Shown here: piece after piece, positions 10,912-58,069 of the stretch | Numbering within the stretch: position 1 is the stretch's first letter | Layout of the letters: each line of letters begins with the position of its first letter | Assembly (NCBI GenBank): GCA_009760855.2 | Contig: WPIO01000030.1 | Span: 682,001-746,000, forward strand | From: Cristatella mucedo | Lineage: Eukaryota > Bryozoa > Phylactolaemata > Cristatellidae | Direction: 5' to 3' | DNA: 64,000 nucleotides | Notes under the pieces: model-generated | What the model was told of the DNA's origin: nothing | What the model saw: the letters and a program-made list of their open reading frames with translations, nothing else | Database searches by the model: none | Translations under genes and position numbers: made by a program

Positions 10912-11044
10912 ACCACGTAGGCCTCCTACATATCTTCAAATGCACTTATCCTCCTAGAAGTTGATAAACGGTGCCATTAAAGGAGGGTGAACTTCGGTTG
11001 ATCGTCGAAAGCAGCAGGAACATCCACTAAATGTATCAAGCTCA

Positions 11045-11290
11045 CAGCTAAAGTTATTCGACGTGCGTTCGCCGATTTATGCCATCACAGTCACCGTTGC
11101 ATGCTGCCACTAAGCACACATACATGCTGATCCTGTGCAGGTCACCCCTAAACAGGTTATTTATGTTGTTTATCAAGCATGAGCAAACTCAGCATTCAAT
11201 TGTGTTTCCTTTGCTGCAAATGTAAATTGCCTAGAAAGTGATTGAGTTCTCTCGGAGCGCTATATCAAGCGTGCTAGTAATATTATTGCT
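11045..11290 (+). mobile_element. LINE-B 3' end fragment in copy 1
   Basis: Carries TGCTGCCACTAA, CATGCTGATCCTGTGCA, GTCACCCCTAAACAGG and the terminal GATTGAGTTCTCTCGGAGCG, as in other LINE-B ends. The same fragment sits at the matching place in copy 3 (48715-49090), so it was present before the block duplicated. Confidence 0.75.
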
Positions 11291-14200
11291 ACGGCACTTT
11301 GTTGCAACTTAAGAATTCAAGTTCTTGGTCGCCGGCGATAAAAATTCGTAGCCCGATTATATTGCCAGCATGCTTAGACAGACTGCCGTGCGTAATGAAT
11401 ACTTTTGGTTCGATTTCAGGCCCGATGCAGGCTGTGGGGCCTTGCCCGTTTCTTGAAGCTTCTTGGAGAAAATTTGGTTGAGATTGAGAGACTTCACTGC
11501 TAGCATATTCGTGGCTGATATTTCTTCTGCCCACGAACTCTCAGCTCAGAGGATCTGTTTGGTATTGACTTTTGTCACCAAAGGGCCTTACTGTCGGTGA
11601 GGTGAGGCTGTCACCAGGGCCGCTGCAGTTTTCAGCCTGGGCTCCCTGCCCGATTAGCAGGCAGCTTACTACAGCAGTCTTGCGATTGGCTAAGGTTCGC
11701 AAAGTTGGGGGCACGAGCGGCTGCATCGCTTGGGCTTCGGCCGGCTGAAGGAACTCGACGGCAGCAAGCGCCCACCCTCTCGGTACAGCTTTCAATTACA
11801 AACCTGCGACCTATCACGTGTTAGGCAATGCGTAGATGGCGTCGTAGCTGCTGCTTAGCTGGGCTACAGCATAGTCGAGACTACATCAGTTATGACCGAC
11901 TGGAGCGCAGCATAGCCCAAGGCATGGGCGTGGCACGCTGGAGCAAGCGTTTCGCATGCCGCGCTCATTCGGCCTAGTGGCTTGGGCTTGACGACGCTCG
12001 CCTCTACCGAAGTGGCGGAGAAGGCGTAACCTGCCGCCGCTTACCAAGCGGCCTTACAGGCTCGTCTACGATCAATAGGCTGGCTGCAACGAAAAGAGCG
12101 TTTCCGGCGCCAGCGTACTCAGCTCTACCAAGGGGTCGCGAGCGCGTTGTTGCAGAACAATGCTCTCCCAACAGCACGGTAGTGAAAGCAGGCAGAACAC
12201 CGAAGCTGGCTAACAAAGACGTGTATTCTCCCCCGCGCCTACAGCGCTCCAGAACAGAGCCGCTCGCCGGCATTCCAACTGCCCCTCACTTCCTCCCAGC
12301 CACAGCTCATCCCCGTGGAGCCTGTGGACAAAGCCGGCCTGGGCTCAAGGGACATCCGCCAGAACACAGATGGGCACCGGCCCATCCCCAGACACATACT
12401 ACCGCTCTGGTTAACAGAGGACACTGCCGGTCTGCCGATACCGGCTGAGTGCCCGTAATCTAGAATGATGCCCATACGAAGAAATACAACCACTATTCCC
12501 CATGATGTTAAGATTAGCACCACAAACACTCACAAGTAACTTGAGAAATGCGGCGTAGTCGAGATATCTGGTAAAAAAATAATCATCCTAACGGCAAGGA
12601 AGTGTCAGAGGGCGCCTGGGCCCCGGCCCTGGTAAAGTTCATTTGACTTGAGGTGCTGGGGTGCGTTTTCCTGCCCTGGAACGAGGCACACGTCGGATTC
12701 GTCGCACGTATCCGACGTGTGCCGTATCCACGTATCTGACACTACATGCTTGGTTTACGATGTCTTGAGGTGGTCCCTTTGAAAGGCTGGTTAAACTCCC
12801 AAAGGTGATGCGATCCACTGGTTGAGAACCGCTGACTTAGGCAGTCCTCCGGCATAACACAGGGAGTGACTATAGAGTGAGTTCTGTTAATCACTAAAAT
12901 GAAGCAGCCGGGCCACGCCCAGTCATCTTCCTGGTCAGATATGGAAAGGTGCACCAAGTTCAGCTGAATTTAATAAAATGCCTGCATGTAACTGAGTAAG
13001 TTTGGATCGTCCAGAATCTTGACGTTTCACTGGCAGTTGCTTTTGGCAGTTCCTTTAGTAATTTGCCGTCTATATTCACCTTAATGTTGGTTATTCCCCT
13101 CACTGCAATATTAATCGCTAAACCTTTCTTGCCAGTGGCTTATGCTCCAGTTCATTGGCTGAATGTGAAGCATGCATGCAGCTCACTTTGTTTCTTACTG
13201 GGCACGAGGCTAAAAATACGTCATTAAAGTCCTTGTATTTCTATACCCCATAACTTTCCTCACACTGCCTAACGTTGTCTCTCCCGAAGAAGGGTTGTAC
13301 AGTAGTACAGACAGAGCTAAGGTGGAGCAAACTCCTTGCTGTTTATTTGCCTTTTGATATCGCAGTCCGTGGCAGTACACTTCTTGACAGCTAAAGGAAC
13401 GCCCGACCAAATGTGCATTCGTGCAAGATATGGTGTGGGCGGCTATGGTGTGTGCATCAGCTTCAGGAAATTTCTCTCCTTCTCTGCCTTCATAACAAAA
13501 AGAAGCCGTCCGCTATGCCTGGCGAGAGAGCTTACCCTAAAAACCCACACCTTTCTCATAGCATTCTCACCGTCTCTACACCTTGTGCACATTGTGCTTA
13601 CACTTGCTGTGAATGTTCATATTGCAACTATGCATGCGGGATTCTTATAAAGCATGTGTACAGTCTCAAGTGAGAAGCTTTGTTGTCTGAATGTCCTGTG
13701 CAAATGGTTTGCAGCCAATATTTTTGTAGCGTGGCAAGTTCATGCATACAGGTGCCTGGTCGAGTAGCTATTATTACGCTGCTATTGCTGCAAGAACCAA
13801 GCTATTAGGTCGTACCCAAACGTCACATCTACCCAATGCCTTGGCACCAGCCTGTCCATGTAATATGGTCTTGTGTTGAGGCCACAAAAACCAAAGTCCC
13901 GCCAAATAATAGCACTCGGTGAAGCAGACGACATAAACGTCGACATGGCGTCAACGTTTACCATAGGCCTGGCGTTCAATCGTACCCACGGTTGAGCTTA
14001 CTTGATAAACAGTGCAGTGGTGACTACAGAACTGATAATAGTGCTTTTCCTCTTGCTAAGAAATTTTGCCAAGGGGTAGCCGTTGTAGCTACACATGGCA
14101 TACTTCCGGCAAGTTGACCTTGATCAGTGACCGTTTACCAATTCTGCCAATCAAGGTAAAGGACTTTACAGGCGGCACGCTGTGTGCACCAGTCATTGCC

Positions 14201-16669
14201 TGGGCATCTTTTTTCTCTGGTCGGTTCAGTACCTCTAATTTACAACAAGAGGTTGGACAGCCATTAGTAAGTAACATTTAGCCTATCAGTAGCAACTTTC
14301 TGCTCTTGCAGTGGCCAGTGTTTGCAGGTTAGAGGTGCGCTTAGCGCAAACTCATAGCTGTCTAGCGGAGAATTGTGCGGGGGGGGGGGGAAGCGTCTTA
14401 GGTACCCAAAACGATGATGTTATTTTGAAGCTCGTACATTTGTTGTCACAGTAGCAGGATGGGCAATTGCGCGTGCCTTGGAAGGGCTACTGCGAGACAC
14501 TGGGCAGCACAAGCAGCGCCGTGTCTTTCATTTTACAGTTGCTTTCTTCAGCCTTTTCTTGAGGAACGAGCCAGAAGAACTTGTTGCGTTGTGCTTCTGG
14601 GCTGCATTGCGATTGCAAAAACGTAAGTATTCGCTCTCGACCTTAAAGATAAGGTCTTATAGGCTTGTTGCAGCTGATCCATCTTATATCTACTGTTTAC
14701 TACATCAGATTCGTGGTTGCTATGGTATGTCTTTGCTCGTGTGCCATGTAGATAGCTTAGTCGTGGAGGATTTTCTTCTAGACTCGGAGCAAGAGATGCC
14801 TTTCCTTAAGATAATTTGCAACGTTAATGTCTTGCCGCAGCCCGGGGATTTCGCTTTCTCCATGGAGAGGTTCTTGTTGCTAAACCGCATTCCGAGTAGT
14901 TTCGCCACATGCTGAATGGTGCTGTGTGAGTGAATAGTCCCACAGAGCTGCTAAAGTCGTGATGTCTGGGTAGCAGTGTTCGATCTTTCATGTTGGCCAC
15001 AGTGTGGACTCGTAAGGCTCCTGCCTGCAGTAGACTTGCTGACTCAGGTCCGTTCGAGGGAGGCAGCATTGATCTGAAGCTGCTATGCAACTCAGCAGCA
15101 ACCAGTGGCTTTTGCTCTGGTGCTGCAACTCTCCTTACACCGTCCCCATCGCTCACCTTTGTTCGTGATTGTGCATGCTGTTTACACTTTTCTTTGGTCG
15201 CGTGTTGGACGAAGTTATGGCCAACGTGGCTGGTATTAATCTTTGCTCTTAGTTCTAGCTTGTGAGAGGCTGGGCCCACTTAGAGAAAGAGGATGCACTT
15301 AGAAGGCAAGATTAAAGCTCAGTGGCTTCAACAGTGTGTAGGTAGCCTCGATTTTGCATCAGGTGAAGATTACATGGGCATGAACCGCTCATTTAAATGT
15401 AACATGTATCCTTTGTACGTTTGGCTACTAGTTGCAAGGGACTTGCATGCTGCAGCTGGCACCTTACAACAACGGAGTCCCGTGCTTTTTAATACATGGC
15501 TCTGAGCAAAGGATATCGGCAGTGAATTTCATACATTTGTTGTCAATAAATTCCACGTCCTTTAATTTTGGAAAGGGTATTGTAACTGACGGAGCATATC
15601 AGAAAACTGGCCTTGAATTCTAATGCATTAAATAGTAAAAAGGATGTCGGAGAAACTGACCACTGATTATGTCCCCTTGCTCATGTGGTGGTCAGAAAGA
15701 AAATCAGAAATACTGTTCGGGACTCCAGCCTCTTCTCGAAAGGTGCTTCCTAACGTCGCTGTGCTGTAGACACTGCTGCTTATTGTTCATCTATATGTAA
15801 ACTGAATTTATTGATTGAGAGACATTGAAATCAGCTGCTTCAATATAAGCTGTAAAATAGAATTGCTTGACCTGTGAAATTTAGTAATCTCATACTTTCA
15901 TCTGCATGGGAATGTAGTCAAGCTGCCAATAAATCAGAGGATTGTTCTAAGAAACTGACTCGGAAACTGAAGTTCAAGTATAACACTACGTAACCGGTAG
16001 ATTGGGAACATTTGCAGAGGCCAAACCTATTTGTGATTGCATAGATGACACAATTACGAGCTAGGTAACATGCTGTAAAATGATGGTGAAGTTGCTCTGA
16101 AGGATTGAGCTGGACAAAGTTACATCGAAGGTCAAGCCCCGTGATGAGGACCAATTCATATGTCGCTCGTGGTTTAAATGGAATTACCATTACAAAACCG
16201 GCTTGTGAGACGGTCACAATATTGCAGCTCTTAAAGGCTAGAGTTTCAGTGGTTTTAGAGGTTTTAGATGAGGTTGGAACGAGCAAGCATTTCAGCAACC
16301 GATATGCCAGTTCGGGCATGGGTAGCTATTGATCTTGAGTCTTTTGCACATTTAGTATATTGTACACTTATGCATATAACTGAACGAGCCTGACAAGATA
16401 CCCCGACTTGCAGATGAATTAAGTGGTGGAACAGTGACACGTGTTAGCAATTGTTCTTGTACGATATTTTATTTTTGGGTGATATCACAGTGTGACATGC
16501 AGCATGCTGACGTCTTTGATCGGATGTTTCATGTAGTGCCGGCCGGTCGTAGACTTCTCAACCACAAACAGTAGATGCCTCAGGCACGTCTTACAATTCT
16601 GAAAATTGATATCAAATGTAAGCTTATGCATTTGTGAAGGTCGTCACATTTGTTTGTAATCTTTTGTAG

Positions 16670-16731
16670 GTTGGCCATGAGCCAACCTCAATTGGGCCAG
16701 CTAATTCCCTCGAAGGAACAGAAACAGCCTG
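16670..16731 (+). CDS. Candidate first coding exon of zinc-finger gene
   Basis: Flanked by a TTTTGTAG acceptor and a consensus donor GGTAAGT. An ATG at 16677 opens a frame of 18 codons starting MSQPQLGQ and ends in phase 1, which fits the next proposed exon (18999, needing two bases). It could instead be an internal exon, because the frame is also open upstream of the ATG. Copy 3 has no counterpart; its homology breaks near here. No domain is present. Confidence 0.4.
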
Positions 16732-18998
16732 GTAAGTACTGCATGTCTTTTTCCTGCTCTCATCGCATGCCTGTCTGGGCATGATTCAATGCAATTACTA
16801 ATAAGAACATTTCAAGTGCGGACCCTGGTGTCTTGATGTGTTATCTCTGCATTGATGTTGTAGCACTATTAAAGCTGTGAAACACTTGTGTTATCTAGCC
16901 TGTCTGTCTACAAATTACGAGTTCAGTGGAATTATTTCAACCCTTGTGGCAAGTTGTAGAGCCTGTTGATAGCCCTAGTGTTCTAGCATAAGCAATGGAC
17001 AAAGCAACGTCTAATTTGACATCGAATAATCCGTGCCAATACTTTTTATCTATGCACAGATGGTTCTACATTTTCCAGATGGCATCCTGACAATGTGTGA
17101 GATTAATTACTCAAGTTGATTATTGAAACCATATTCGAGAGGTATTGAAGAGCTTGCTTCGGCACACAAACATGGTGATTCATTAGCAGGCCTATATTCT
17201 CTTCTCTTCTTCTGGCTCCCAACGTTCCAGCAAACGCAAGCTTTAGCTTTTTTTTTTAGCTGCTCGGCAGGCTTCCCAGTTGCAATTCTCATTGACCTTG
17301 GGTCTCTGTTGTCTCCTGGGCCTACATGATCCACCTCTGCCTATCAGTACCAGCTAATCGCCAGTATGTTGATGGACTACAGCTGCCTACCGGCCTGTAT
17401 CTAGGTTACACGGAACAGCTAATCAAAGGTGAAGTAGCTGACTACAGCAACTTTCTAACCTTCACCCCAGCCACAACTCTTATAGTCACGACCAAGGCAT
17501 CATACTGAGGATCAGCTAAATCTGACATCGTAGGTCTACTGTGGCAGACATGTAAATTTGGCTGCAGGCAAGTATCAATGCAAGTAACGAACATTTTCTA
17601 ATGCTTTTATTCTTTAATCCTTATGAAGTAATTTTATAAACAATATTAGGAAACCACGGGGCCTCAGCACGTGCACCCAGATCAAATACAACTACAAGTT
17701 CTCTTACTATGCTTAGTGCTGATCTGCTAAACAGCAGACTGGCATAAGTCGCAGTTGGGTAAGTATCTGATGACAAAGTTTGATGTTTTTTCTAAGACAG
17801 TCCAAACATTTTGAAATTGATTTGTCGCAGCACATGAAGCAAGTATAGGGATTGACCACTAATCATTAGCTTGCAAGTTTAGAGAATGTACAATAATAAA
17901 CTAACAAATCAATAAATATCAAAACTAAAATCGCTAATGTAACAAATCTCGGCTAGTGCAATATTATCTAGTTTAGCCAAGAGGACGGTAATTGGAACCA
18001 ATCAGGACTCGACGGTCGAGCATCATTGCTGGCCTGACTTGTCCCAAGGGCAAGGCAGAGGCCTTGAACGACCAAGCTCATAGGTGCAAGCCGCCCAGCA
18101 GCATATGTTAAACACACAGATAGAGAAATAGTTGCCCAATGGGCTCTACATTTATATGGTATATTTATATCTAATATGGTCACTGATATATGATACTTCA
18201 TAGATAGACAACTACAGTACTTTGGTTTGAGAAAATCACTCGCCATACGTCATTCAAGTTTCAGTAATAAAGGTGATTCAAAATGCATCTACAGGAGGCT
18301 AGTTACTTATATGGTCAATTAATCTATTACAGTAAAAGTGGTATTGTTGTGGTATTCTCTTTATTCTGGAGTTGAGCAAGATGTATCTAGACATCCTAGT
18401 GGTCTTATGTTTGACTTCCAAACCCCTTGAGGTCTAGAACCTATCAAAACTCATGCAAATGCTTGAATTTTTTGCCGATAATGCAGAATATACGTGATTC
18501 CTACACTTTAAGACGTACCCAATGCACTGCAAGCATTTGCCATCCCAACATTTCTAGCTACTTCAGCAAAGGAGACACATTGCTGTATATCTAGGATTTG
18601 TTGACTACCCTAACCGGCGTACTCCTCAAAATCCGAAGAAGCTTTGTGGCTTTTCCGGTTAATCCAGATTAAACTAAATTACGGCAGTCCAGCATTGAAA
18701 AAAACCGCTCAGGCATAGTATGATTTGAAGTGAAAAGATACCTAGTCAAGCTGCAAGCTTGGGCTAGCCTATGAATGACATTTTGGTTCTGCTATCGTAT
18801 AGCTTGGGTAATTTCTGCAGCCAACCACAGGCTATATATGTGAGGTCTGTTCTAATAGATTCTGTGCTCATTAAAAGGTGGAAGCTCATTCACAACGGCG
18901 GCTTGTGTCAAGTAGAGTCTGTCAATCTTCCTTTGGTCATCGGTGCTTCAAACGATTGAGATCTATCCGACAAGGTTTTCTCGGCTTCTTTTGCTCAG

Positions 18999-19199
18999 AC
19001 TCGGCTGATGCAAGGATTATAGCTCACACTGTACCACGTTATCAGGAGGCACTGCAGCTTGTAGCTGCCACCAGTAGCACTAATGCGGTTTCCGCTGGCG
19101 AGAAGCAAATACACCAAGTCGTAAGTCATTATGGCAATAAGGCAAAAGGACCTGCTGTCCAAGACAATGTTAAGATAAAGAAGACGTCTAGTCTACTTG
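18999..19199 (+). CDS. Conserved non-finger exon of zinc-finger gene, copy 1
   Basis: A 201-bp exon with acceptor TTTTGCTCAG and a weak donor GTTAGA; copy 3 has GTAAGC at the same place. It enters by completing a codon with AC and leaves in phase 1, compatible with the finger exon at 20138. The product is 66 codons plus split ends, hydrophilic, with the conserved segment GEKQIHQVVSH. The copy-3 counterpart (56099-56299) is also exactly 201 bp and stays in the same frame apart from one stop codon. That length and frame match is the best evidence it is coding. Function is not recognised. Confidence 0.55.
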
Positions 19200-19204
19200 G
19201 TTAG

Positions 19205-19444
19205 AAAGCTCTCTTTTTCTCTCTCTCTCTCTTTCTCTCTTTCATTTTATAACCATTTTTTGCCCAGGTTTGGCACAGGGGTTAAGGCACTGCCCGCAAC
19301 GACCAATTTCAAAATGATTGCTTTAAATGACTAAGGCTTGAAACTGTCGGATTATATCAAGTCCTTGTTTAGGGATTGAGTTATCTTAGGATGCTGTTTA
19401 CAAGTGAATTATTTCTCACGTGCGCACTCACGAGAACATGCACA

Positions 19445-19541
<97 letters not shown>

Positions 19542-19545
19542 GCAT
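19205..19545 (+). repeat. Intronic CT tract and (CA)n/(TA)n microsatellite
   Basis: A CT-rich tract of ~40 bases starts just after the exon donor. An almost pure (CA)n tract runs from ~19441 to 19526, followed by a short (TA)n. Copy 3 has both in the same order (56310-56400 and 56605-56720) with different lengths and purity. The peptide repeats translated from here are artefacts. Confidence 0.9.
19266..19410 (+). mobile_element. Old SINE-1 relic, copy 1
   Basis: Degraded SINE-1: CACAGGGGTTAAGG corresponds to the A-box region, GGCTTGAAACTG to the B-box region, and AGGGATTGAGTTATCTTAGG to the tail. Copy 3 holds an equally degraded counterpart at 56418-56560, so the insertion predates the duplication. 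Confidence 0.55.
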
Positions 19546-19778
19546 ACACACGTTTTCACATTTCGTTGCGTCTTGTACCTGGGTGGAGCCTCGTGACGTC
19601 AACTAGTGGCCCAGTTTGGGGTGGCATCCGAGGGATTTGATCAAAGATTGTCTGCTTCAAACCATTTATTTGCTCTGGTAAGTGGTCAATAGCTCAGGGG
19701 CTCGAGCTGCAGCTTTGGCAAGCGATTGCAAGTGCATCATTACGTTGACAGTTTGCACTTTTAAAAAGAGACATCACG

Positions 19779-19933
19779 CCCACGACCTCGGTCCCGAGGT
19801 CGTGGGTTCAATTCCTGCGGTGGACGATTCTTTATTGCCACTGCAAGCGGTGGTGATAGCCGAAAGGCTCTTCTGTCGCTATACAAAAAGAGGCTATTTA
19901 ATCAGCTAGGATTTCATATTTATTTATTTATTA
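19779..19933 (+). mobile_element. SINE-2, 5'-truncated
   Basis: Starts with a perfect inverted repeat: arms 19779-19791 (CCCACGACCTCGG) and 19794-19806, loop of two bases. A B box GGTTCAATTCC follows, then the body ACTGCAAGCGGTGGTGATAG, CTCTTCTGTCGCTATACAAA and GAGGCTATTTAATCAGCTAG, and a T-rich ATTT tail. Copy 3 lacks it at the matching position (~56915), so it inserted after the duplication. Other copies are 48786-48967 (-) and 52250-52421 (+). Confidence 0.78.
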
Positions 19934-20137
19934 TGCCATTAAACTGACCAAAGACGTCTGCTAACGTCGTTTCTGCAGTAAAAGAAGCTGTTTGATTATT
20001 GCCAAAGTGGTGGCATAGGTGCTTAGCTGTTTGCGATTGGTCACCAAAGACAGGCTGCACCTTATGTCCAGAAGAGGCAGTTCACATTACCCGTGCGTGT
20101 TGCTGCCTCGGTGTCAAAGCGCCGTGCTCCTTTGCAG

Positions 20138-20244
20138 TGAGCTACCAATGTTCTCTCTGCTCCAAACGCTGCGAACGATCGGGGTTGGTTGAAATGCACA
20201 TATATGCTGTTCACGGGAATGCTGCCGGAGCTCGCATCTTGGAG
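20138..20244 (+). CDS. C2H2 zinc-finger exon, copy 1
   Basis: A 107-bp exon with acceptor CTCCTTTGCAG and donor GAG/GTAATT. It reads VSYQCSLCSK and ends in a phase-0 junction after GARILE. The finger fits C-x2-C-x12-H-x4-H (Cys in QCSLC, His in MHIYAVHG), which in this family coordinates zinc and usually contacts DNA. Its phase joins the 201-bp exon before it and the proline/alanine-rich exon after it. The copy-3 counterpart (57126-57228) has lost one codon and carries a one-base frameshift. Confidence 0.65.
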
Positions 20245-20487
20245 GTAATTCGCTTGAATGCTTAGCTGCTCTGTCTGTTCACTCGCGGGTGAGCCGTAAT
20301 TTAAAAATGCGAGCTGGTAGCTTACTCTTAATGTTAGCATCAAGGTCGTGTCATGCTGCCTCTGCCCAAGCCAAGCGTCCGTCTCACCTACCTGCTCTGC
20401 TCAAATGCATCTGTAGCAAGCATTGAGTTGGATGCACATGCAACGATTGCTTGCTCTAATCTGTATTGCACTTCCTTTCACCTGAAG

Positions 20488-20628
20488 GTCAATTTATCAC
20501 CGGGAGCTCTTGATGGACAACGTGACCAGAAGGTGTCAGCATCTGCAGTGGTTGTGCCTTCGCCAGCAACATCTGCACCGGCACGAGCAATGGCTGCTCC
20601 TGCCTCGGCAACGACTGCTCCTGCACTG
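20488..20628 (+). CDS. Proline/alanine-rich linker exon, copy 1
   Basis: A 141-bp, 47-codon phase 0-0 exon reading VNLSPGALDGQRDQK and then an Ala/Pro/Thr/Val-rich low-complexity stretch. The acceptor is CCTGAAG and the donor CTG/GTAACG; copy 3 keeps GTAA at the same donor. A disordered linker is the simplest reading. It could extend past the donor as a terminal exon, since copy 3 stays open to a TAA and copy 1 has a TGA at the equivalent base but in a shifted frame. Confidence 0.4.
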
Positions 20629-21276
20629 GTAACGGTTGCTGCAGCATGGCTGCTGTTTCTACTGCAGCAGCTACGATGGCAGCAGCTGTTGCTGGTTCTG
20701 CCTGAGGCTTTACTGGATTGCACCAGTAGCATCTGAACCTTCAGCTTATGTTCTGGCTTTCTGTGCACTCGCACTGGATTCTCACCAGTCCACAAATTAA
20801 TTTCTAAGTTGTGAAGGCTTTACAAAACATAAGTGACTCTCTAGCAGTCTATTCAAGCTTATTTTGTCCAAGTCTAACACTTGTCAAGTATCTCTGTCAA
20901 ATATGGATATAGGCAATTTTACCAGTAAACACAGTGCACACTCGCATTGACTTTGTTACCGTGTTTATTCACTTAGTCTGGAGTTGGAGCAAGGTTTTTA
21001 GCACTTTTGGATCAGGGATCTGTCCCTGTGGCGGTAAAGTGACCACCCTACAAAGGAACTTGATACTAGAATCGGACTCGATAAAATTGATGGACAACCA
21101 GTTTGTCGTGTTTTCTTCTATATTGTAGCACCATATGCATGTGTTGTACCCTCCAACAGCATGCTACTTCCCTGGTTGGCTGCTTAATGAGCAGTGCTCG
21201 TTGGTCAGAGCAGCCAGCTCTGCATTTGCTGCTGTTCACCTGCTTCATGACCTTCATGCATGTTTAAGTATCAAGT

Positions 21277-21360
21277 TACAACTGTAACTGCTGTGGGTTT
21301 TCTTCGAAATGGAAAGCTGTGATTCATCGGCACATCAAGCGTAGACATCCAAATCAGAGG
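21277..21360 (+). CDS. C2H2 zinc finger, exon borders uncertain
   Basis: The frame YNCNCCGFSSKWKAVIHRH then IKRRHP fits C-x2-C-x12-H-x4-H exactly (Cys 21283 and 21292, His 21331 and 21346). Possible acceptors are TTTAAG (exon from 21269) or ATCAAG (from 21276). Neither gives the phase-0 entry that the exon at 20488-20628 would need, and no strong donor follows. Either an exon is missing between them or this is a decaying finger. A small possible exon, 21487-21527 (TTGTAG acceptor, GTGAGC donor), reads SSGHLRTSR and may be part of another finger. Confidence 0.45.
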
Positions 21361-22241
21361 AACCTCGGAATAAACTCATCTCAGCTAAAATGGATCGGTT
21401 CGACCTACAATATTCCTCTCATGCTAATCAATAGGCAGTCAAAACTAATCTGTTGTGTCATTTTTTCTTAATCTTGCACGTTGTAGTCCGAGCTGGTGTC
21501 TTCGGGACACCTGCGAACATCTAGACGGTGAGCCTGCAATATGCTTAGTCTGAGAAGGAAGGACAGCCTCAATTCTCAGTTCTATTGCCAGTTTATCAAA
21601 TTAAGATCGCGATAGCAGGGAATACTAGAAGTTGACAGAATACAGTCGTGAGAATATACGTGATCACCTGTGATATTTTTTGTTCGAACAACTATGCACT
21701 TGAGCACAAGCACAAGAGGATACGAATAGGCCAATGTGCAAAATTTGGCTCCTAAGCGGTTATTTATATAGTTTAAATTAATGTTAAAACAATTCTAAAA
21801 GTGTTCTGAAACACGGAGTCGAAAGGAGATGTCAGAAATCTGAACCATATGTAGACTTAGCCCCTTAGTAAGTGCGATGGAGAGCTGCTACCCTCGGCTG
21901 CTTGCTGCAACTGTGACTGGGTGAGATAGATTCAACAGACTCTTCGAGAGAACTGCCGATGGATGAAAACTAAGGGAGGTCCGAATGACGATGGCTTCTC
22001 AGCCGCCAGATTGTATGTCCTCGACCTAAAGTAGAAGAGAAACCCATGAGTGTGGTATCGCTTACAGTTGAACAGGTAGTCAATTTTAGTAAGCTCCCAG
22101 CCGCAGCAAACACGCTGAGGGCGGCATCAAGAATTATACCACACGATCAGGGATTGAGTGTGGTTCAAACGAGTAGCCATTCAGCAGTGCACACTTTCGC
22201 ATCACGGTGAACCACCAATTCCACTCGATTTCATTTTTTAG

Positions 22242-22367
22242 GCTTCGTGCAGCAGCCATCTCAAGCAGCACGTCAATGTGCACGAAATCGACTACGTGTC
22301 AGTGCCACCACCGAAAGCCGCCCGTGGCGAAGAGGTGAACGCATGCAGCAGAACATCTGTCGACCAG
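22242..22367 (+). CDS. Exon carrying second half of a C2H2 finger
   Basis: The acceptor CATTTTTTAG is followed in phase 0 by ASCSSHLKQHVNVHEID, which looks like the second half of a finger (hydrophobic L, then H-x3-H). Its Cys pair should lie in the preceding exon. This is the same split-finger layout as the last intron of the gene. A consensus donor CAG/GTGAGC at 22367/22368 ends a 42-codon exon in phase 0. If that donor is not used the frame stays open to 22634. The exon with the matching Cys pair was not found with certainty. Confidence 0.45.
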
Positions 22368-22720
22368 GTGAGCAGTTCCGGGAGCAGAAGCAACTCGGAA
22401 GAGGCGGCGTCCCGCTGCAAAGACGCTGTCAACATCTCCGAGCTCAAGCAACCCACCTGCATATCTAACCCATTCTACTCCTCTCGTCCGTGGCACCCTA
22501 GTACCCCAGCCGGCTATAACGCGACGATCCGATGTCGTCGTAAGGTCGGAAGCTGTGCAAGTGCAGCCACTGTCCGTGTGCTGCACCCATGCAGTCTCTG
22601 CAGACCTAGTACGGGAGAAGCCACAAGCACATGATTTGACTACCGAGGGCCACACAGGATGCCTCACGGGCCGGCATCGCCTTTGCAGCTGCACATTCGA
22701 CCTCGGCCACCGAGCTATAG

Positions 22721-22795
22721 TGCATGCAGATCAACTACTCGTGCGACGATGAAGGTTCGCTCGAGGAGCACTTGGTCGTGCACAATGCGGAGTAT
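22721..22795 (+). CDS. Zinc-finger-like exon with altered Cys
   Basis: After a possible acceptor GAGCTATAG the frame reads CMQINYSCDDEGSLEEH then LVVHN. Spacing from the last part (L-x2-H-x3-H) places the second metal-binding Cys where ATC (Ile, 22730-22732) stands, giving C-x2-I. It is either a degenerate finger or a misread frame. A GT follows at AAT/GTGCAT. Confidence 0.3.
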
Positions 22796-22799
22796 AATG

Positions 22800-25529
22800 T
22801 GCATGCACATAGCTAGAGAGTTTTCAGAGTTGTGTTGCTGATGCTGGGGCTGACCCCGTGCTTCTGCTGTGCAGTGCAAGATAGGGAGCTCTCGGAAGAG
22901 GGAAGAGTCTTACCTCTGTGCTTACGGAAGCCTCCTTCAAACCTGGTGGTATTGGCCAAGGCTATTTTCGCCCTTGCTTTCCTGTACTCGTGCACGAGCT
23001 ATGCTTGTTTGTTCTTGCTAAGATTTAGCATTCTGCATCACACTTCAGTGGCTCATTGTGGTATTTTTTCGTTAGGTTAGAGCTATGAGTATTTATTATC
23101 TTATTGTTACATCAAATTAGGGCCAGAGAATGTTAGTCACGTTACTGCGATCGAGCCGACTGATTGTATGAAATTAGTGTTTGCTGCCACGCTCAGCTTG
23201 TTTTTAGGAAAGTCATGCTGGCCTGTGGTGGTAAATAGTTTACCATACCTGCTTACATTTTCACTTTTCAAATTGCATATCGCAAATTGGGTTGTACTTT
23301 AACCGAGTTTCCTGTACTTTCCAGGCTTGGGGATAGTTTATCTGGTTCAACAGTTTTTGGAGTTTGCTATCATTATACTTTCAATTACCCTATTAGCTTC
23401 CTCCTAGAGTAACTTGAAGCAGCGTGTCCCCTCCACAGCTTGCCAATATAACTTAATTTCATCAAGTGGATAGACTCTAATATATCAGCTTAGTGTGCAT
23501 ATTCATGGTTGTTGGCAATAGCATGTCGTATCAGATTCCGATTTTCATATTTAGGTTTCTTACGCTTTTGAAAAAGCTTAGAATAATAAAAATACTAATG
23601 ATAGTCGTGCCGTTGTTTAATGCACTCAGATAATATGGTCTTTTTTACTTCATAGGCACTGTACATATGCGTTAGAGGTAGCACGATTAAATGGTTAATA
23701 GTAATATTAAAATGTCAACGAGCCTAACATGGACGTGACATGCACGGTATGTAGGGTTGGTGTTAGATGGTATAACATCAGTACACATAAGTAGTCACAA
23801 CAAATCGCCACGACCCACCATATGCTAATCTCGGCCAGATTTGGGTTACCCTGACTTCAGTCGGGATTGTATTCCGAGCTTTCGGGGCATGCGAATGAAG
23901 GCACGTTCTCCAATTGGCTTGAGATTTGTTTGAGGCATAGTTAAGCATTTTGGGTCAGAGATGTGGGCGGTGCAATACCTAGCCTGGTTGGGATTTGTCC
24001 AGAATATGAGTGTGCAGTCATCAACATCCGGATGACGGCCATGCACACTTTAGCAGCAAGGGTGCTTCAAATTTTGAAAAGCTGGAGGGCTGGGATGGAT
24101 CAAAGCATAGGTGCACCTCGTATTGTTGCACAGCCAAGGCAATACTGAATCCACCTGCAGTGATTAGCTTTAAAACCACACAAAGCTTATGTGATAGGTT
24201 TTTAATTTCAATAGAAGAATTCCACTGGTCTGCCAAAACTCTTTTCCTTGTCCTCTATTGTAGCTTCAGTAGGGAAATGGAGTGGAATTTGCAAAGTTCT
24301 CTTTAACTAGCGTCGCTTTCCTCAGTAGTTGCCCACCTACAGACTTTTCTAAAGGTGCAAAGACAAGACCTAAGGCAAAGTACATATTTATTATGTTAAC
24401 TTTTCACGGCATCATTAAATCCATGCATCGTAGAAGTAGGACGGTGATAATAGGGTCTAGTGGGCTAGTAGTCTCTCGTGACTTTGCGATGAAGTTTAGG
24501 ATATCGTCAGGTATATTTACTTTGAATGAAGAGATTAAATTGGTACACATAATTAAGAAAGCATTCTGTGGGGCTGTTCCTGAGGGACAGCAGTCCATTG
24601 GGGACCGTACTACCTTAGGGGTGCACCTGTTGATTGGTTCATCTTGCTGACAAAGAAGTTAGAGAAGCGTTCAGCTAGCTCGCCGCCAAGCTCTCTAAGA
24701 AGCTAACCTGAGAGCAAGTAAAGAGACAGTTTATATTCAGCATCCACATTTTTGGATTGTGCATTGTAATTCAACAAGGTTTTCTATTAAACAATTAGTA
24801 TTCAGTCGTAGCTAGGATAGATTGGCATGATTAGCAGTTGCCCTCTTACACATGTCGATGGACAGTAAAACCTGATCGTTTGAATACTTTCTCAAACTTA
24901 AGCTTAGCTGGCATAGCTAGGTTAAAATATGCAATAAAATAAAGGATATCTGGGCAATTGCACTTAGGGTGCACAGTCAGAGTTGCAAACTGATCAATCA
25001 TGGCAGCTTATGTCGTGCTGTTGCATGCTACTAATGAACATGTCGGAAGGATATTGAGCAGCACATGCGAAGAAGATATTTCCGTAGTGATAACGTCGAC
25101 TTCAAGGGTCTTCGCTTTTCGCGATTCACTGATGATTGTGAACTCGGAGGAGGGCACACACACTGCTGCCTGATTATGATCTGCTTGAGTTGAGCCGTGC
25201 AGAATTAGGTCGTGGTAGAATTATTGATCGATAATGTGACCCTTGTTGTGAGTAGAGTCATGCATATGAGCCACAAGAGAACAAAGTCAGACACTGCAAA
25301 CACTTCGACACCTAAGACCGAGGCTTACAGTTTATGAATGCCATTGGCCCCTCGTGTCTTGCGGTACGTTACAAATCTAAGATTCTTTACCATGCTTTAC
25401 AAGTCATTGTTTGATTAGTTTCTGTAGACAAACCTCTTTAATTAATAGCTTGGCACGTCACAACTTAATGTTGCAAGGTAGGTAAACACACCTCAGTAAT
25501 TATTGTATTGGGTTTTGTTGACATCTCAG
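22800..25529 (+). other. Probable intron sequence; no gene seen
   Basis: Between the finger fragments and the 3' exon group. Open frames here (for example 24282-24650) have no finger pattern or domain. I found no SINE, LINE or tandem repeat copies by eye. Confidence 0.4.
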
Positions 25530-25623: not shown

Positions 25624-25710
25624 GTATGTATTGCTGAGTGCTTACCTCGGGCTTTGTGCTGCATTCTTGCTGGTTGGCCTTACTGCAATGTGCTGGTGGT
25701 TGTTCTACAG

Positions 25711-42920: not shown

Positions 42921-42939
42921 ACACGATGCTACGCTATTC

Positions 42940-43640: not shown

Positions 43641-44700
43641 CTTTTTGTTGCGTGAGATGATGTCTTTTGGCTACCAAAGCAATTCCCGAAAGCCGCTTAC
43701 GTTGAGCTCGCCCTAAACAAAACCGCCCTTCGTAACTCTCACTTATTCTTTCTGGCTTTGGGGAGTTACAGACAGACACAAATGACATCGCCGTGAAGTG
43801 CTGCACTGTAGTTTTAGTTACTGCACTTTCCGTTGTTAAAGCAAATTGATAACTAAAGCAGAATTAAAGTCCTCGTTACAACAGAAAGTCTTTTATAGTA
43901 ATGCAAGCGATTTACCAAGTGATAATAATAGGCTCAGTTTGACATATCAATTCCTGAGAGCTGTGGACAGGTTGTGAAATTTTTTTGGGAATGGCTATGA
44001 TATTATGCACCTTGTCGTGCTTAAATATTCACCAAAGTCGGATTGTGACTAAAATATGCAAATTAATATTTTTATGTTCAAAAGTGGCTGCCGCTAAAGT
44101 TTCTCAAGGTGCTGACCAGCTTGTGGGTCTAGAAACTTAATGTTAATAAGGCAAGATATTCATTAACAGCATTCCTACTTTGGCTGGTTCCTAAATTATT
44201 CGAAGTTAACTGGGCCTAAAACAGTTGATTGAAAAAACTTATTATTCATGCTAACCGTCAATCGAAAGTGTATTAATTAGCTACTACTGCGTAGCAAGTG
44301 ACATTTTAGATATGATCTAGTGAAAGCATTCTAAGTTTTCGAATTTTCAGATAATTATCATTCAGAGTTGATCGCGAATTAAAGCTCACCACTGCCCTGC
44401 ATCTAGAAGTACTACAGAGTCGGCCGGCCCTTCCGCATTCTGGTTACTGTGGTTAGCAGTCGCGGCTAATCTACTAATCTGGTAACGAAGAGTTATGGCT
44501 TGCAGCAGTTTGAGTATTCCTGAATGTTTCCTCCGAGATTCCTAGGATTGCTAAGGTGATGCTTCGACAGGCAGGCCTAAACTTGCAGCCCGAGCTTTTA
44601 TTAAAGCATGCCTTGTAATTAAAAGCCTGCCGGGCCTCCATAATTCTCTGCTTAACTTTTATCTGTCCAAAACTGTGTATCGCTTTTGAAGCAAATGCAG
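43641..44700. other. No gene seen
   Basis: AT-rich, unassigned. No repeat copies recognised. Confidence 0.35.
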
Positions 44701-46160
44701 GGTAATAGTGTATACACACGCAATACGCAACTTTCGGCGTGTATGCGGTAGCGAATCATCATCTCAGGCAACTAAAGGAAAGTGACAAACATGGTTGAGT
44801 AAAAACGGCAGGCGAGGAACTGAGTAGCTGCGAAGTAGAAGCACAGGATGATGGATGCGGTACAGTAAGCTGGAGAAGAAAATATACCGTGCGAAATATT
44901 TTTAGAAGTGAGTTCTGCACTCCAGGGACTGCACAGCAAAACCTTCCCGTCAACAGTCTCTTTACGAGTAGATATTGAAGTATATTATTTATTGTCCATA
45001 GAGTTTCGGAGGGAACAAGGAGTCTAATACCAGTGCAGATGTTCAGCTTGGCATGAAGGATCCAAGATACGGTGGGCCTAATGGGCTTGAGTAAGAACTT
45101 TGATCTGTATCCGTTGATCGACCGATAGCTTTTTTTGCATGACCGAGAGCTTTGCCATGAAAACTCCTATAGCAAAGTAATGCCGCTGCACCTCTGGGAA
45201 TTGTTAACTAGCCTTGAAGATATATTCATCACCCGCTGCATTGGCCGAATCGTGTTTTTGGTAACCCAGCAAAAATAGCATTCCAATAATTCAGACGACA
45301 CGTTACCAAGAGCTGGCTGTATTTCGTGCATGTCGCCAAGGTAGGCGGTCATTAGAGTAACATATAAATCCGACGAGACGACTGGTAGTAAAAGCAGTCT
45401 TCCTTATGAAACTTTCACGTTGTAGGCAGTTGTCAAAATCACACCCATATTCAGCTCGCATGACAACGGTCGCACAACAGCATTACTTATTAAAAGAGCG
45501 AAGTCTTCTTATTCAGCCACGCGCTTGGTGAGTCGTGTGAGTTCATTTCAATATTTCCTTAATTTATGGAACTTGGCTGACATCCAGGATATGTTGTCAG
45601 TAAAGCAGGCCAATAGCATATCAGTCTATGCAGCATATTCCGACAATTTAAACGAACAATACAGCTGTGTTTCATCAGAATGTAAGTGGTGTCTGATCCC
45701 ATCGAACCAAATCACTTGTTCCATATGTTCTATATAAATGGTGGACAGCAAACAGCCAACAATGGACCCTCGTGGGACTTGACAGCTAGGGTCTCGTGGA
45801 GTTGATAACTAAGCTAAATGGATGGTAGACTAACAGGCCAGATGCGAAAGACGCTGGGCCTTTCTTGCCAAGGCCGATCACTTTGTCCAATCGTTCAAGT
45901 AGAATACCGTGCCCAAAAGTTTCAAACGCGGCCGATAGGTCGAACAGGCCCAGGGCAGTGATATTTACGTCTTAAATGTTGCATAGGGTTTCACTAACTG
46001 CACAGCGGATAACAATTTTTCTGAAGTGGCATCGCTTGAGTGCCGACTGAAATGCTTCTAGCTATACATTATTTTAAATATGTGCTACTGACTATTTTGA
46101 AACATTTACTATAAAACTCGGAATTGCTGCAGCAGCATGAATATTTCTGGGCTGCAGGAC
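44700..46160 (-). mobile_element. LINE-A, highly degraded, minus strand
   Basis: Parallels 35200-36600 block by block: CGTGTATGCGGTAGCGAA with CGTATTCGGTAGCCAA, the gene-end region 44880-45130, CAATCGTTCAAGTAGAATAC (45888) with CAATCGTTCAAGTAGAACAT (36378), and a YADD-region equivalent near 45650-45700. No long open frame is left. Confidence 0.7.
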
Positions 46161-46689
46161 GACTTCGGTGATCTTTGTGTGGCATGCGTTCAGGCTCAGA
46201 GCGGATCGTCAGCAAACACCTCCGAATGGTCCACCAGATTGCAGCTGGTTATTTTGTCGTCGAAAGCCTCTCAATTTGTATTAAGCACCGCAGCTTGGTA
46301 AAATAAAAAGCACAATCACTGTGTTACTACTCTCTAATTGCACGAGGTCAGTGTCCATTGCAGCACTATTGACAACTGTTTGGTGCTGTTCACTTCTGCG
46401 ATTGAATGGTTTGATTGGTCACAAATCTTTCACCCCCTGCTTCGGCAAAAAATTAAAAATTGGGGTGCACTTCTCAAGCTCAAGCTTACCTAATTTTTGA
46501 ATCCTGCCTCGCAGCCAAGGAAAGTTAGGGATGGGCCAGTTAGGCACTGGTAGTGGGAGGTTATCCGTTAGGTTTATTATGGCCAAAGACCTGTGGTTAT
46601 ATCTTTGAGATTTCTGTCGCTTTCTCTGGCAGTAGATATAACGCTATATGTATTATAAATTAGTGTCCTTCTGCCTTTACGCTGCACAG

Positions 46690-47025
46690 AAAGCTTTTTG
46701 TCGGCACTTAGAAATTTGTTCACCGAACATTGACTCCTGTCACAGTAAACTCGTCCATAAAGGGCTGAAAAGGAAAGCAGCTGCATCCGATGGATGTGGA
46801 ACTGTTCCGGCTATGCTATCGCAAAAAGCCATGCAACTGACGGCAACATCTAGTCATTGCTATGAGTTAAGCCGTGTTATAAACATAAAGCAACGGCTAC
46901 TTGAAATGTTTAAAGCATATCTCCCCACTAACATAATTAGAATTATATATACGATGTCAGACCAAATGCAATGGCCATCTAATTTAATATCTTGCCTATC
47001 TACAATGTCAATTCAGTACAGGTAA
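46690..47025 (+). CDS. Candidate terminal exon, finger-like start
   Basis: After a good acceptor (CCTTTACGCTGCACAG) a 111-codon frame opens with KAFCRHLEICSPNID and runs to TAA at 47023-47025. The start resembles the second half of a finger in the same phase-0 layout as 28145 (RHLEIC for RHIRLH), with the last ligand Cys instead of His. The rest has no domain. Alternatively the AGGTAAGAC at 47019 is a donor. Not convincingly tied to any upstream exon. Confidence 0.25.
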   Translation, partial: KAFCRHLEICSPNIDSCHSKLVHKGLKRKAAASDGCGTVPAMLSQKAMQLTATSSHCYELSRVINIKQRLLEMFKAYLPTNIIRIIYTMSDQMQWPSNLISCLSTMSIQYR

Positions 47026-47689
47026 GACGTGTCCAAACCCGTCTTAATCGCCACAATCGAAGGTCATTCAAAGCGAATGGACTAAAGAGGATGCTCTCTT
47101 TTCTTCCCGCAAGTCACCTAGTCGGACATGTTTGTTCTCAGAGGAATAAATGGTCTTGAACCTGACCACGTTTTGTCATGAACAGTGAACTCTTGAGCTC
47201 ACGTGCCCTAAGTGTGGTTTTTTGTAGGTGAGTGCTCTTGCTAAATCGTTTGCCAGCAAAATAGCTGGCGTTCTTGTACACTCTGAATCTTGCACATCCA
47301 CATCCTCTGCGACACGGCTAACCTTTTTTTAATCGCCCGTCGTCATTCTATTCACTCGAAACGCAAGCTTGGTGATAATGCTCACAAGCATTGTTAGTGA
47401 TAACGTTCGTAGTCGTCGGTGCCGATATCAGTGTATAAGCATCATCCGTCGATCACCCCAGCATCAAGTACGATTGTCCCTGCATCACCAAAGGTATTGC
47501 GTATTTGTTGAGCGAAGCGAGGCACTTGCTAATGGGCAGCGAACCGTCATAGTCAATCAGCGTTACTTTTCTTATATTGATAACGTTGGCATTTCTGTTA
47601 GGTACGGTAGACAAAACACAGGTGGCAGCCATTAGCACCAGTAATTGGTGGTTCTTGGTAAGGCTCGCATAGTGACTGCTTTATCCAGT

Positions 47690-47985
47690 TTTCTTTTCCA
47701 GTCTCTCGCTCTCTCCCTCTTTGTCTCTCTCTGCCTTTCTCTCTTGCTCTCTGTCTGTCTCTCTCTCTCTCTTTCTCTTCTTCTCTTTCTTCTCCCTGAC
47801 TAGTCTCTCTTTTACTCTCTCCGTGTCTCTGTCTCTCCCAGTCTCTCTCTGTTCCTCTCTCTCTCCTCCCTCCCACCCTTTCCTCACCTCCATCCTCTCT
47901 CCCTGTCTTTCACTGTGCCTCTGTCACTCTGTGAACTTGTCTCTTTTTCTCCGTCTCACTCTCAGTCTCTCTCTCATTCACTCCG
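47690..47985 (+). repeat. Pyrimidine (CTCT)-rich tract
   Basis: Nearly 300 bases of imperfect TCTC repeats. It has opposite strand bias to the GA tracts at 32480 and 50398 and lies just outside copy 3. Open frames across it on both strands are artefacts. Confidence 0.85.
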
Positions 47986-47989
47986 CTGG

Positions 47990-48573
47990 GACCGCTGAGC
48001 TCGATGTTTAGTAGCTCAAATTAATAGCAAGTTAATACCTATGAATCTGCTAGCAGGCTTAGCAGACGACTGGGATCATTACCCTCAGCTCGACCACACG
48101 TGGCATTGGCTTGGTCTGGCAGACCGCCTGAGAGTCGGCTTTTCGCTTCTCTGCTGCTGTCAACGAGTACACGGCGTACGAGTACATCCGTCCGAGCTGA
48201 ACGGACGCTGCTCTGTCCTCATTCTTCTTTTCACTCTCTGTACTCAAGCCATTGGGAGTAGCAGAATATTTTATCCGTAGTAACTAATCTATCGATCCTC
48301 CAACGATGTTGTAGTTTCGTTTAATTAATGGCACTGCCCCTAATCGTTGTACGAGTGGACTGTACACCCGATGTGGTATGCGGTCGTCAGGTGCTATTAC
48401 TGATTGTTCTGACAACGGGGTTGCATACACTCCGGTGAGCGAGGGGTGAAGATAGTCGGGATTCCCTCTTCTCCGTGTACTACGTGCCTAGTGAATAAAC
48501 AGGTGGTGGGAGTCATCGGTTTGCTTTCGGTGCTGTGTGCGACGGCAATATATCTAAAAGCCATTTCTGGTGG
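47990..48573. other. No gene seen
   Basis: Unassigned DNA between the pyrimidine tract and the left edge of copy 3. Confidence 0.4.
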
Positions 48574-48612
48574 CAGACTGTAGGCCTACAGTACATATAG
48601 GCCTACAGTCTG
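48574..48612. repeat. Perfect hairpin at the left edge of copy 3
   Basis: Arms 48574-48588 (CAGACTGTAGGCCTA) and 48598-48612 (TAGGCCTACAGTCTG) are exact inverted repeats of 15 bases around a 9-base loop. Similarity to copy 1 starts directly after it (GATCGTAGAGAGCAGCAGG against GATCGTCGAAAGCAGCAGG at ~10999). Confidence 0.9.
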
Positions 48613-48714
48613 CTGATCGTAGAGAGCAGCAGGAACGCCAGCTACAGGAACAAAGCTCAGAGCTAAAATTATTTTTAAGTGCATTCTCAGACTTTTGCAG
48701 CTACGGTCGCTGTT

Positions 48715-49090
48715 ACATGCTGCCACTAACTAACCTCGCATGCTGATCCAGTGCATGTCACCCTAACCATGTTACTTGTGCTTTTGTTAAATAAAAAAAA
48801 ATTCGTAGCTGCCTAAACAGCCTCCTTTTGTATAGCGACAGAAGAGCCCTTGTTGCTAGCACCACCGCTTGTAGTGGCGATAAAGTATCGCCCACCTCAG
48901 GAATCAAACTGACGACCTCGGGACCAAGGTCTTGAAAGCAACCACCTTACCCAGTGTGCCATTACGGCTCATTAAGCACGATACCTCTCAGTATTCGATC
49001 GTATTTCCTTTGCAGCAAATGTAAACCACCTAAACAGCGATTGATTTCTCTTACGACTCTTTATCAGGTATACCATTATTATTATTATGG
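48715..49090 (+). mobile_element. LINE-B 3' end interrupted by SINE-2
   Basis: Left half 48715-48785 (ACATGCTGCCACTAAC, CATGCTGATCCAGTGCATG, TCACCCTAACCATGTTA) and right half 48968-49090 (CTCATTAAGCACGATACC, TTTCCTTTGCAGCAAATG, CAGCGATTGATTTCTCTT, ending in ATT repeats) together make one LINE-B terminus. Copy 1 has the uninterrupted form. Confidence 0.8.
48786..48967 (-). mobile_element. SINE-2, full-length-like, minus strand
   Basis: On the reverse strand it starts with a tRNA-like head: A-box-like TGGCACACTGGGTAAGGTGG, then TTGGTCCCGAGGTCGTCAG and B-box-like GTTTGATTCC. The body is CACTACAAGCGGTGGTGCTA, CTCTTCTGTCGCTATACAAA, GGAGGCTGTTTAGGCAGCTA and a T-rich end. It inserted into a LINE-B end after the block duplicated. 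Confidence 0.78.
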
Positions 49091-52249: not shown

Positions 52250-52421
52250 GGTAAGGCGGTTGCTTTTCACGACCTCGACCCCCGAGGTCGTGAGCTCGAA
52301 TCCTACAGAGGGCGATCCTTTATCCCCACTGCAAGCGGTGGTGATAGCCGTAAAGGCTCTTCTGTCGCTATATAAAAAGAGGCTGTTAAATCAGCTAGCT
52401 TTATTATTATTTTATTATTAT
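52250..52421 (+). mobile_element. SINE-2 in copy 3
   Basis: Head GGTAAGGCGGTTGCTTTTCA, inverted repeat TCACGACCTCG ... CGAGGTCGTGA, B-box-like GCTCGAATCC, body CACTGCAAGCGGTGGTGATA, CTCTTCTGTCGCTATATAAA, GAGGCTGTTAAATCAGCTAG, and an ATT-rich tail. It splits the segment that is continuous in copy 1 (AGCATTCTCACCGTCTC, ~13560) and copy 2 (AGCATTCTCTCAGTCCC, ~35040), giving two empty sites. Confidence 0.8.
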
Positions 52422-56720: not shown

Positions 56721-57125
56721 CGTTCCGATGCATCTTGTGGCTTTGCCTAGAGGCCCAATTTGGTATCGCATCTAATGGATCTTAGCAACGTGATTCGGCT
56801 GTATACCATTTACTTTTCCTTGAACACGGTCGGTAGCTTGCGGCAACCGCTATGGCTTGGCCGATCGATTCCAAGCACATCATTTAGCTTAAAGTTTCTG
56901 CTTTTTAAAAGAGAAGTCGTGATATTGATCTAAGTGAATATGTCTGCTAACGTCTTTTATGCTGTAAAACCGACCAATGATTGCACATTGCTAAAGTGGC
57001 GGCATAGGTGCATAGCTGTTTGTGATTAGTCAATAAAAGGCAGACCACTTTATATCGAGAAGAGGAAGTTCACATTACCCTTGCGTCCTGCTGCCTTGGT
57101 TTCTAAGGAAAGTACTTCGTTGCAG

Positions 57126-57228
57126 GGCGCCAGTGTTCTAGCTGCATTATGCGGTCCAAAAATCGTGGGTTGTTGAAAGGCACATCGGTATAGTTCACGG
57201 AAGTCCTGCCGGAGCTCGCATTTTGGAG
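57126..57228 (+). pseudogene. Frameshifted finger exon, copy 3
   Basis: Counterpart of 20138-20244, 103 bp against 107. Acceptor TTGCAG and donor GAG/GTAAGT are kept. Loss of one codon near the start and one further base between the Cys pair (QCSSC) and the His pair puts the histidine half (RHIGIVH) in another frame. A stop at 57190-57192 follows in the entry frame. Confidence 0.65.
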
Positions 57229-57469
57229 GTAAGTCGTTTGAGTGCCTCGCTGCTCTGTGCAAATACTTGCAGGTACATCGTATTTTACAATGTGCTGTCG
57301 TTGCATACTCTCAACTTAAGTAATGAGATCATATCATGCTGCATCTGCCCAAGCCAACTATACGTTCAGCCTACCAGCTTGGGTCTATGCATTTGTAGCC
57401 AGCATTGAATTGGATGCGCACGAAGCGTTTGTTTGCTTTCACCTTTATTGCGTTTGCTTTTATCCGCAG

Positions 57470-57609
57470 CTCTTTTTTCACCTGGAGCTTTTGATGGACA
57501 GCTTGACCAAAAGCTGTTTTCACGTGCAGTGGCTTCGCATGCTCTTGCAGCACCTGCTCCTAGATGGGCAACGGCTACTGTTGTGTGGACAATGACTGCT
57601 CCCGCACGG
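57470..57609 (+). pseudogene. Linker exon remnant, copy 3
   Basis: Counterpart of 20488-20628, 140 bp against 141. Acceptor TTATCCGCAG and a GTAA donor are present. The SPGAFDGQLDQK frame is offset by one base from the phase-0 entry used in copy 1, so it would not be read in frame. Confidence 0.5.
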
Positions 57610-58069
57610 GTAAAGGTTGCTCCTGTACCATCATCTCATTTTACTGCAGCAGCTGCAATAGCAGCAGCTGTTTTTGCTCTTGCCTAAGGCTGCACCGGTA
57701 GCATCTGCACCTTCATTGTGTGGTAAGGCTTCCTGTGTACTTAAACCGGCTTCTCTCCAATCCACAGTTTGCTTCGTTGTTAAGATGGCTTCAAAAAACA
57801 CATGCGATTCTCTAAGCGTCCATTCACGCATAATTCTGTCTGTCTAATACTTGACAAGTAACTCTTTAAATAGAGCATTTAGGGCTATTTTACTAGCAAG
57901 CACAGTGGGCATGCTTTTTTGAAGTGTCCATTCACTTATTCTGAAGATGGAGCTCATTGTTTCTCACTGGTGGATATTTTGCGTCGAGGATAAGTCTTTG
58001 AGTAGCTAAAGTACCCACCGTACACTTGGATTTGCTACGAGAATCGGACTCAATAGAATTTATATCTGC

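Follow-up and report, generated by a model that had tools for sequence, protein, structure and literature searches.

The stretch of DNA analysed here (the window, 64,000 nucleotides) covers positions 682001-746000 of contig WPIO01000030.1, which is 4.57 Mb long in an assembly of 572 Mb and 688 contigs. It holds three related units on the forward strand. Unit B1 (10940-30550) is of a kind we call type I and consists of the remnants of one gene, gene A, followed by an intact second gene, gene B; it is collinear with unit B3 at 70-76% identity, and its final 1.4 kb is part of a repeat family. Unit B2 (34056-48576), which we call type II, is collinear with contig 645.2-662.9 kb at 75-84% identity. 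Unit B3, again type I, begins at 48609, passes the window end at 64000 and continues to ~758.9 kb of the contig, so that further copies of its genes sit outside the window, up to ~759 kb. Window positions are given in bases and contig positions in kb; the contig context is taken from the sequence at 600-910 kb, excluding 830001-835000, which amounts to 5 kb of the right arm of the inverted duplication described below.

Gene B (25548-28525, + strand) is a five-exon C2H2 zinc-finger gene of 309 codons plus stop, with exons at 25548-25623, 25711-25870, 26015-26212, 26345-26459 and 28145-28525 whose joined frame is open. The splice sites can be read both here and in the mirror copy of the gene, and all are GT-AG except for the GC donor of the 26015-26212 exon; one finger is divided between exons 4 and 5. 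Over 304 of the 309 residues, Pfam reports zf-C2H2 at 32.8 bits (cut-off 25.2) and zf-H2C2_5 at 32.9 bits (cut-off 27), together with the PriA zinc-ribbon model at 28.6 bits (cut-off 26), which is taken as a cross-match. C2H2 zinc-finger proteins are a DNA-binding family, and by this family membership gene B probably encodes a DNA-binding protein; among solved structures, those closest in sequence are of generic C2H2 proteins such as PRDM9 and CTCF, which give no family name. A search of viral contigs with the gene B protein gave three stretches that match a pattern, none of them encoding a relative.

The mirror copy of gene B (854.6-857.5 kb) is likewise open. Between the two arms the gene differs by nine nonsynonymous and two synonymous changes (dS 0.011), and thus bears no sign of recent purifying selection. 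The copy in B3 (755.2-757.2 kb) and its own mirror are both dead: the start codon is absent, exon 2 contains a stop, and the match to exon 2 stops six bases short, at a point that lacks a donor. Between B1 and B3, dN/dS is 0.57 for the left copy and 0.61 for the right, values which suggest that selection acted on gene B over some of the period after the two units separated.

Gene A, which lies upstream of gene B in type I units, is in a poorer state. Its first finger exon in B1 (20138-20244, + strand; acceptor TTTGCAG, donor GAG/GTAATT), read from the sequence and from alignment to B3, encodes a single finger that scores 14.4 bits with Pfam zf-C2H2, under the cut-off of 25.2, and 30.6 bits with an in-house finger profile that was seeded with this same finger. 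The counterpart in B3 (57120-57228, + strand; found by tblastn as a piece at 57157-57228) is dead, its frame lost through a 3-base and a 1-base gap while the donor is kept. The next finger exon in B1 (21274-21371, + strand) is truncated at its 3' end, at ~21371, and scores 23 bits with zf-H2C2_5, under the cut-off of 27, the longer mirror exon reaching 31.5. Relative to the mirror copy, 6.0 kb has been lost from B1 here; this segment is kept in the mirror arm, where it holds finger exons at 865.5, 864.9 and 862.5 kb, and is largely kept in B3. The terminal exon in B1 (22242-22813, + strand) has decayed into finger pieces in differing frames and shares 60% of its amino acids with the B3 exon (753.08 kb) and 90% with the mirror copy. 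The mirror copy of gene A is decaying too, with a cysteine missing from its first finger and stops in its terminal exon. In B3, two gene A exons, at 747.4 and 751.2 kb, have open frames; in the terminal exon at 753.1 kb the frame stays open across a half finger and the finger after it, and the last finger lies in another frame. All three B3 gene A segments fall below the Pfam gathering thresholds, and one of two mirror exons lies above them.

Unit B2 contains one open finger exon (40630-40710, + strand), which scores 24 bits with zf-H2C2_5 (cut-off 27) and is 85% identical in amino acids to a copy at 652.05 kb that itself scores 30.2 bits. About 0.86 kb downstream lies a dead tandem copy of this exon (41491-41568, + strand, found by tblastn), with an in-frame stop and a lost histidine; the local alignment of the two scores 390, against a maximum of 162 in 200 two-base-block shuffles. 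Such pairs of finger exons are also seen at 652.05/654.3 kb and, within the mirror arm, at 840.8/839.9 kb. B2 further contains a weak relative of the first gene A finger exon (46172-46264, + strand; tblastn E 0.013, and 7e-4 for its counterpart at 660.5 kb). The three single-finger exons of the window (at 20149, 21283 and 40639) are all below the Pfam cut-offs; exons related to them, at 866.2 and 652.05 kb, score above these cut-offs. In the left flank, ~80 kb from the window, two adjacent C2H2 fingers are encoded on the opposite strand (positions 1855-2031 of 600001-604000).

The original prediction had described one intact, one partly intact and one dead copy, which is only roughly right. 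B1 does have an intact gene B, but its gene A is broken by the 6.0-kb deletion. B2 has one open finger exon and a dead tandem copy of it. In B3, the finger exon inside the window and gene B, beyond the window, are dead, while gene A exons beyond the window are partly open.

Single-finger exons in the same orientation across 20-41 kb could also be read as parts of a single, very large zinc-finger gene with many exons, in which internal duplication multiplied groups of exons, on the model of lola-like loci, which have alternative finger exons. We regard this as highly improbable: gene B begins with an ATG of its own and runs through five matching exons to a stop, the terminal exon of gene A is a separate one, and no BTB domain was found in the segments scanned, which cover part of the window. 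More broadly, neither KRAB nor BTB domains were present in 18 Pfam-scanned proteins from selected open segments.

The relationship among the units extends well beyond their exons. Self-BLAST of the 64-kb window yielded three plus-strand diagonals in the order claimed by the original prediction, which had proposed three collinear blocks in the same orientation; B1, B2 and B3 are ~65-75% identical in nucleotides, and most of the matching sequence is noncoding. Between B1 and B3, seven of nine HSPs form a single chain from 10994/48609 to 19894/57041; an eighth, excluded from the chain solely for overlap, extends the match to 21091/58063; the remaining HSP is a short repeat. In collinear segments chosen by hand, this pair has 7,247 gap-free columns at 74.1% identity (K80 0.32) with 133 indels, B1 and B2 have 1,994 columns at ~70% (K80 0.377; six of seven HSPs in the chain), and B2 and B3 have 2,243 columns at ~70% (K80 0.381; five of five, the first falling within an AG-rich simple repeat). 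Across the core, weighted identity of B2 to B1 and B3 is 65-67%. Minus-strand matches for the three block pairs numbered one, zero and one. As controls, 12 pairings of block with non-block sequence returned 20 matches, all short and repeat-like except three between B2 and 41.5-48 kb, namely a 1.5-kb and a 0.5-kb LINE-like match and the finger-exon duplication.

Among 1,688 three-way columns, B1 and B3 share a state at 287 sites, compared with 195 for B1 and B2 and 172 for B2 and B3, and the grouping of B1 with B3 was the largest in all 2,000 resamplings. Coding content is not supported as the cause of the similarity, as the shared sequence has no clear three-base periodicity (266, 62 and 72 sliding windows; largest chi-square 10.2), which implies that the similarity is mostly noncoding and inherited. 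The part most conserved between B1 and B3 is at 14900-15300 (83-84% in 200-column bins), also without clear codon periodicity. The block limits first proposed (11-21, 32.4-39.9 and 48.6-58.1 kb) are clipped by later insertions and by the window end. The proposal that each block is tied to C2H2 exons holds for B1, with its exons at 20138-20244 and 21274-21371, and for B3, with the frameshifted relic of the first of these, but the B2 exon at 40630-40710 has no nucleotide counterpart in B1.

Repeats of several kinds are scattered through the window. Reverse transcriptase fragments, which we take to be LINE-type, are found at 35484-35999 (-), 36355-36708 (-), 38237-38630 (+), 41985-42253 (+), 42930-43776, 59457-60000 (+) and 29493-30175 (-); the first of them has no Pfam match, and the fragments at 35.1-37.2 kb break the match of B2 to B1 and B3. 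A short interspersed element of ~150 bases, with copies 79-83% identical, occurs at 19781-19934 (+), 48788-48934 (-) and 52268-52421 (+); its copies in B3 split older sequence, and our guess is that it is of tRNA-like origin. One repeat occupies the same place in B1 (11088-11297) and B3 (48702-49088, where a later insertion interrupts it), and by this shared position seems to predate the split of the two units. A 44-base tandem repeat is present in 3.2 copies at 60167-60306. No exact target-site duplications of at least 7 bases were found near five insertions in the stretches searched, and Rfam and tRNA scans of the window returned nothing.

With short interspersed repeats inside the blocks, the block might conceivably be a transposable element of high copy number that lies by chance next to zinc-finger exons. 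In a whole-genome search, all 15 matches of a 2.6-kb core query (13563-16175) fell on this one contig, between 646 and 881 kb; those up to ~737 kb are plus-strand matches, and those from 827 kb onwards are minus-strand matches. The first look gave 12 candidates for this query, compared with 10,377 for a query bearing a true dispersed repeat. Among the best-scoring candidates the block is thus local and not a dispersed transposon, contrary to the high copy number that the original prediction had named as grounds for abandoning its model. As the units moreover carry gene exons and span 14-20 kb, we give the transposon explanation almost no credence. A search with the left flank (600001-604000) returned, among the best 40 of 10,377 candidates, 79 matches, comprising the flank itself and 78 of ~510 bases or less. 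Most of these 78, within the same best 40 candidates, correspond to a dispersed repeat at query positions 3066-3565 (contig ~603.1-603.6 kb). With 10,377 first-look candidates for the query that contains it, this repeat is very abundant, and several of its matches are head-to-head pairs.

On the scale of the contig, the three copies in the window are two unit types in alternation. One direct chain joins 645.2-662.9 kb to 716.1-730.6 kb (B2), another joins 692.9-712.6 kb (B1) to 731-758.9 kb (B3), and a truncated type I copy lies at 664.9-669.8 kb. Nine places match the core; a partial copy at 829.6-830.0 kb, with fewer than 500 query bases and adjoining the excluded 830001-835000, was left out of the tree. 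In the tree of the remaining eight, the type II copies (646, 719 and 844 kb) are set apart from the type I copies (668, 734, 695, 871 and 880 kb) with 100/100 support, and the pairs 719/844 (100/100) and 695/871 (100/99) are mirror copies of each other; the order of 668 and 734 is left open.

In the assembly, the entire window (1-64000) is contained in the left arm of a large inverted duplication. Reverse-complement alignment shows that 681.36-763.94 kb (arm limits 681.358-763.942 kb) mirrors 895.42-800.58 kb, with a 36.6-kb spacer between the arms. Fourteen HSPs that start to the right of 686 kb and have at least 700 bases and at least 90% identity add up to 58.7 kb, with a weighted identity of 95.2%; this count omits further arm matches at 682.41-697.52 kb (15.2 kb, 93.4%) and 681.36-682.34 kb (93.1%). 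In megablast, 19 HSPs of at least 500 bases align 73,691 bases in total, with 4.18% substitutions and 249 gap openings; some positions in this total, chiefly at 694.7-697.0 kb, are counted twice owing to an extra copy in the right arm. Divergence between the arms is uneven. In 4-kb bins it is ~5-6% at 680-703 kb, partly measured against the extra copy, 2-6% across 704-747 kb, 1.4% at 748-752 kb and 0.3% at 752-756 kb (12 mismatches in 3,997), and it reaches 7.6-11.8% per kb at 760-764 kb. The longest run identical between the arms is 2,113 bases, whereas the maximum in 300 random placements was 329. Tract identity therefore exceeds that of a uniform mutation process, and fits gene conversion and haplotype coalescence alike: arm-to-arm conversion would explain the patchy divergence, and so would variable coalescence of misjoined haplotypes.

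The second of these corresponds to a reading in which the direct duplications are real and the mirror arm is an assembly artefact, a second haplotype joined inverted to the first. The mean divergence of 4.2% and its patchiness resemble allelic difference, and misassemblies occur among published palindromes (PMC7953838). Against this, the arms are finite: beyond 681.36/895.42 kb, out to 910 kb, the flanks are linked only by repeat-family matches and by ~74-75% paralogy, as between 676.7-680.0 and 904.7-907.7 kb. The flank at 600-604 kb has no second long copy among the best 40 of 10,377 candidates. Furthermore, the spacer holds, at 785.3-798.2 kb, an inverted third copy of 671.5-684.8 kb (89-94% identity), and an additional type I copy lies in the right arm at 879-882 kb. 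Taken with the finite arms, these extra copies suggest that an artefact would require more than one wrong join. We consider a misjoined haplotype unlikely, and the finite arms, the different outer flanks and the extra copies favour a mirror that is physically real, as far as can be judged from the assembled sequence.

If the mirror is real, the locus may be a very large palindrome (arms of 80-95 kb) in which conversion homogenises some tracts (746-756 kb, the region of B3 gene A), other tracts drift to 5-12%, and intact and broken copies overwrite each other. We put forward this full scenario only tentatively and judge it somewhat doubtful.

Overall, we think it likely that this is an animal C2H2 gene cluster that expanded through segmental duplication within the locus, in two phases or more, an old direct one and a later inverted one. 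The copies are collinear, in the same orientation, on the same chromosome and inclusive of noncoding sequence. The original proposal of tandem segmental duplication of a zinc-finger locus is therefore supported, but not as a simple tandem triplication, as two unit types alternate and the most recent large event, an inverted duplication, extends outside the window. In the sequence of events that we propose, old direct duplications, by unequal exchange or replication-based duplication, would have created alternating type I (B1, B3 and 664.9-669.8 kb) and type II (B2 and 645-663 kb) units, which are now ~16-35% diverged. Later, more than 80 kb, the whole window included, would have been duplicated in inverted orientation around the 36.6-kb spacer. 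Deletions, frameshifts and insertions would then have removed genes piecemeal and differently from unit to unit, while arm-to-arm gene conversion probably kept some tracts nearly identical, and is the likeliest cause of the near-identical tract.

We suggest that one zinc-finger locus underwent duplication in both orientations and at two ages that differ clearly, an ordinary kind of cluster growth. At this locus it can also be tested directly whether finger genes are protected by conversion between palindromic arms, or whether such structures in animal assemblies are joined haplotypes. Primate Y palindromes have nearly identical arms, unlike those here, which are ~4% diverged on average. The locus does resemble Y-chromosome palindromes with gene conversion, as portrayed in a review of palindromes in parthenogenetic animals, in having large inverted arms with near-identical tracts; the same review warns that misassembly can create palindromes (PMC7953838). 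The literature on C2H2 clusters and palindromes, searched by subject, gave nothing attributable to this locus. Tandem duplication is believed to be how such clusters expanded (PMC2443715, PMC3701560), and mammalian clusters share this mode of growth with the locus, with lineage-specific loss described there (PMC2443715); unlike in mammals, the fingers here are spread across many small exons, and a long single-exon finger array was not seen. A zinc-finger palindrome has already been reported in the springtail Folsomia candida, where one of 11 palindromes contains two times five zinc-finger copies (PMC5490193). Both cases are inverted duplications of a zinc-finger array on one scaffold, but the arms here also hold much older direct repeats, and dS between arms is 0.011 for gene B, compared with 0.2 for the Dscam2 genes of another palindrome in that study (PMC5490193). 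What is new here is that the unit types alternate, together with the gene models and the mirror arm.
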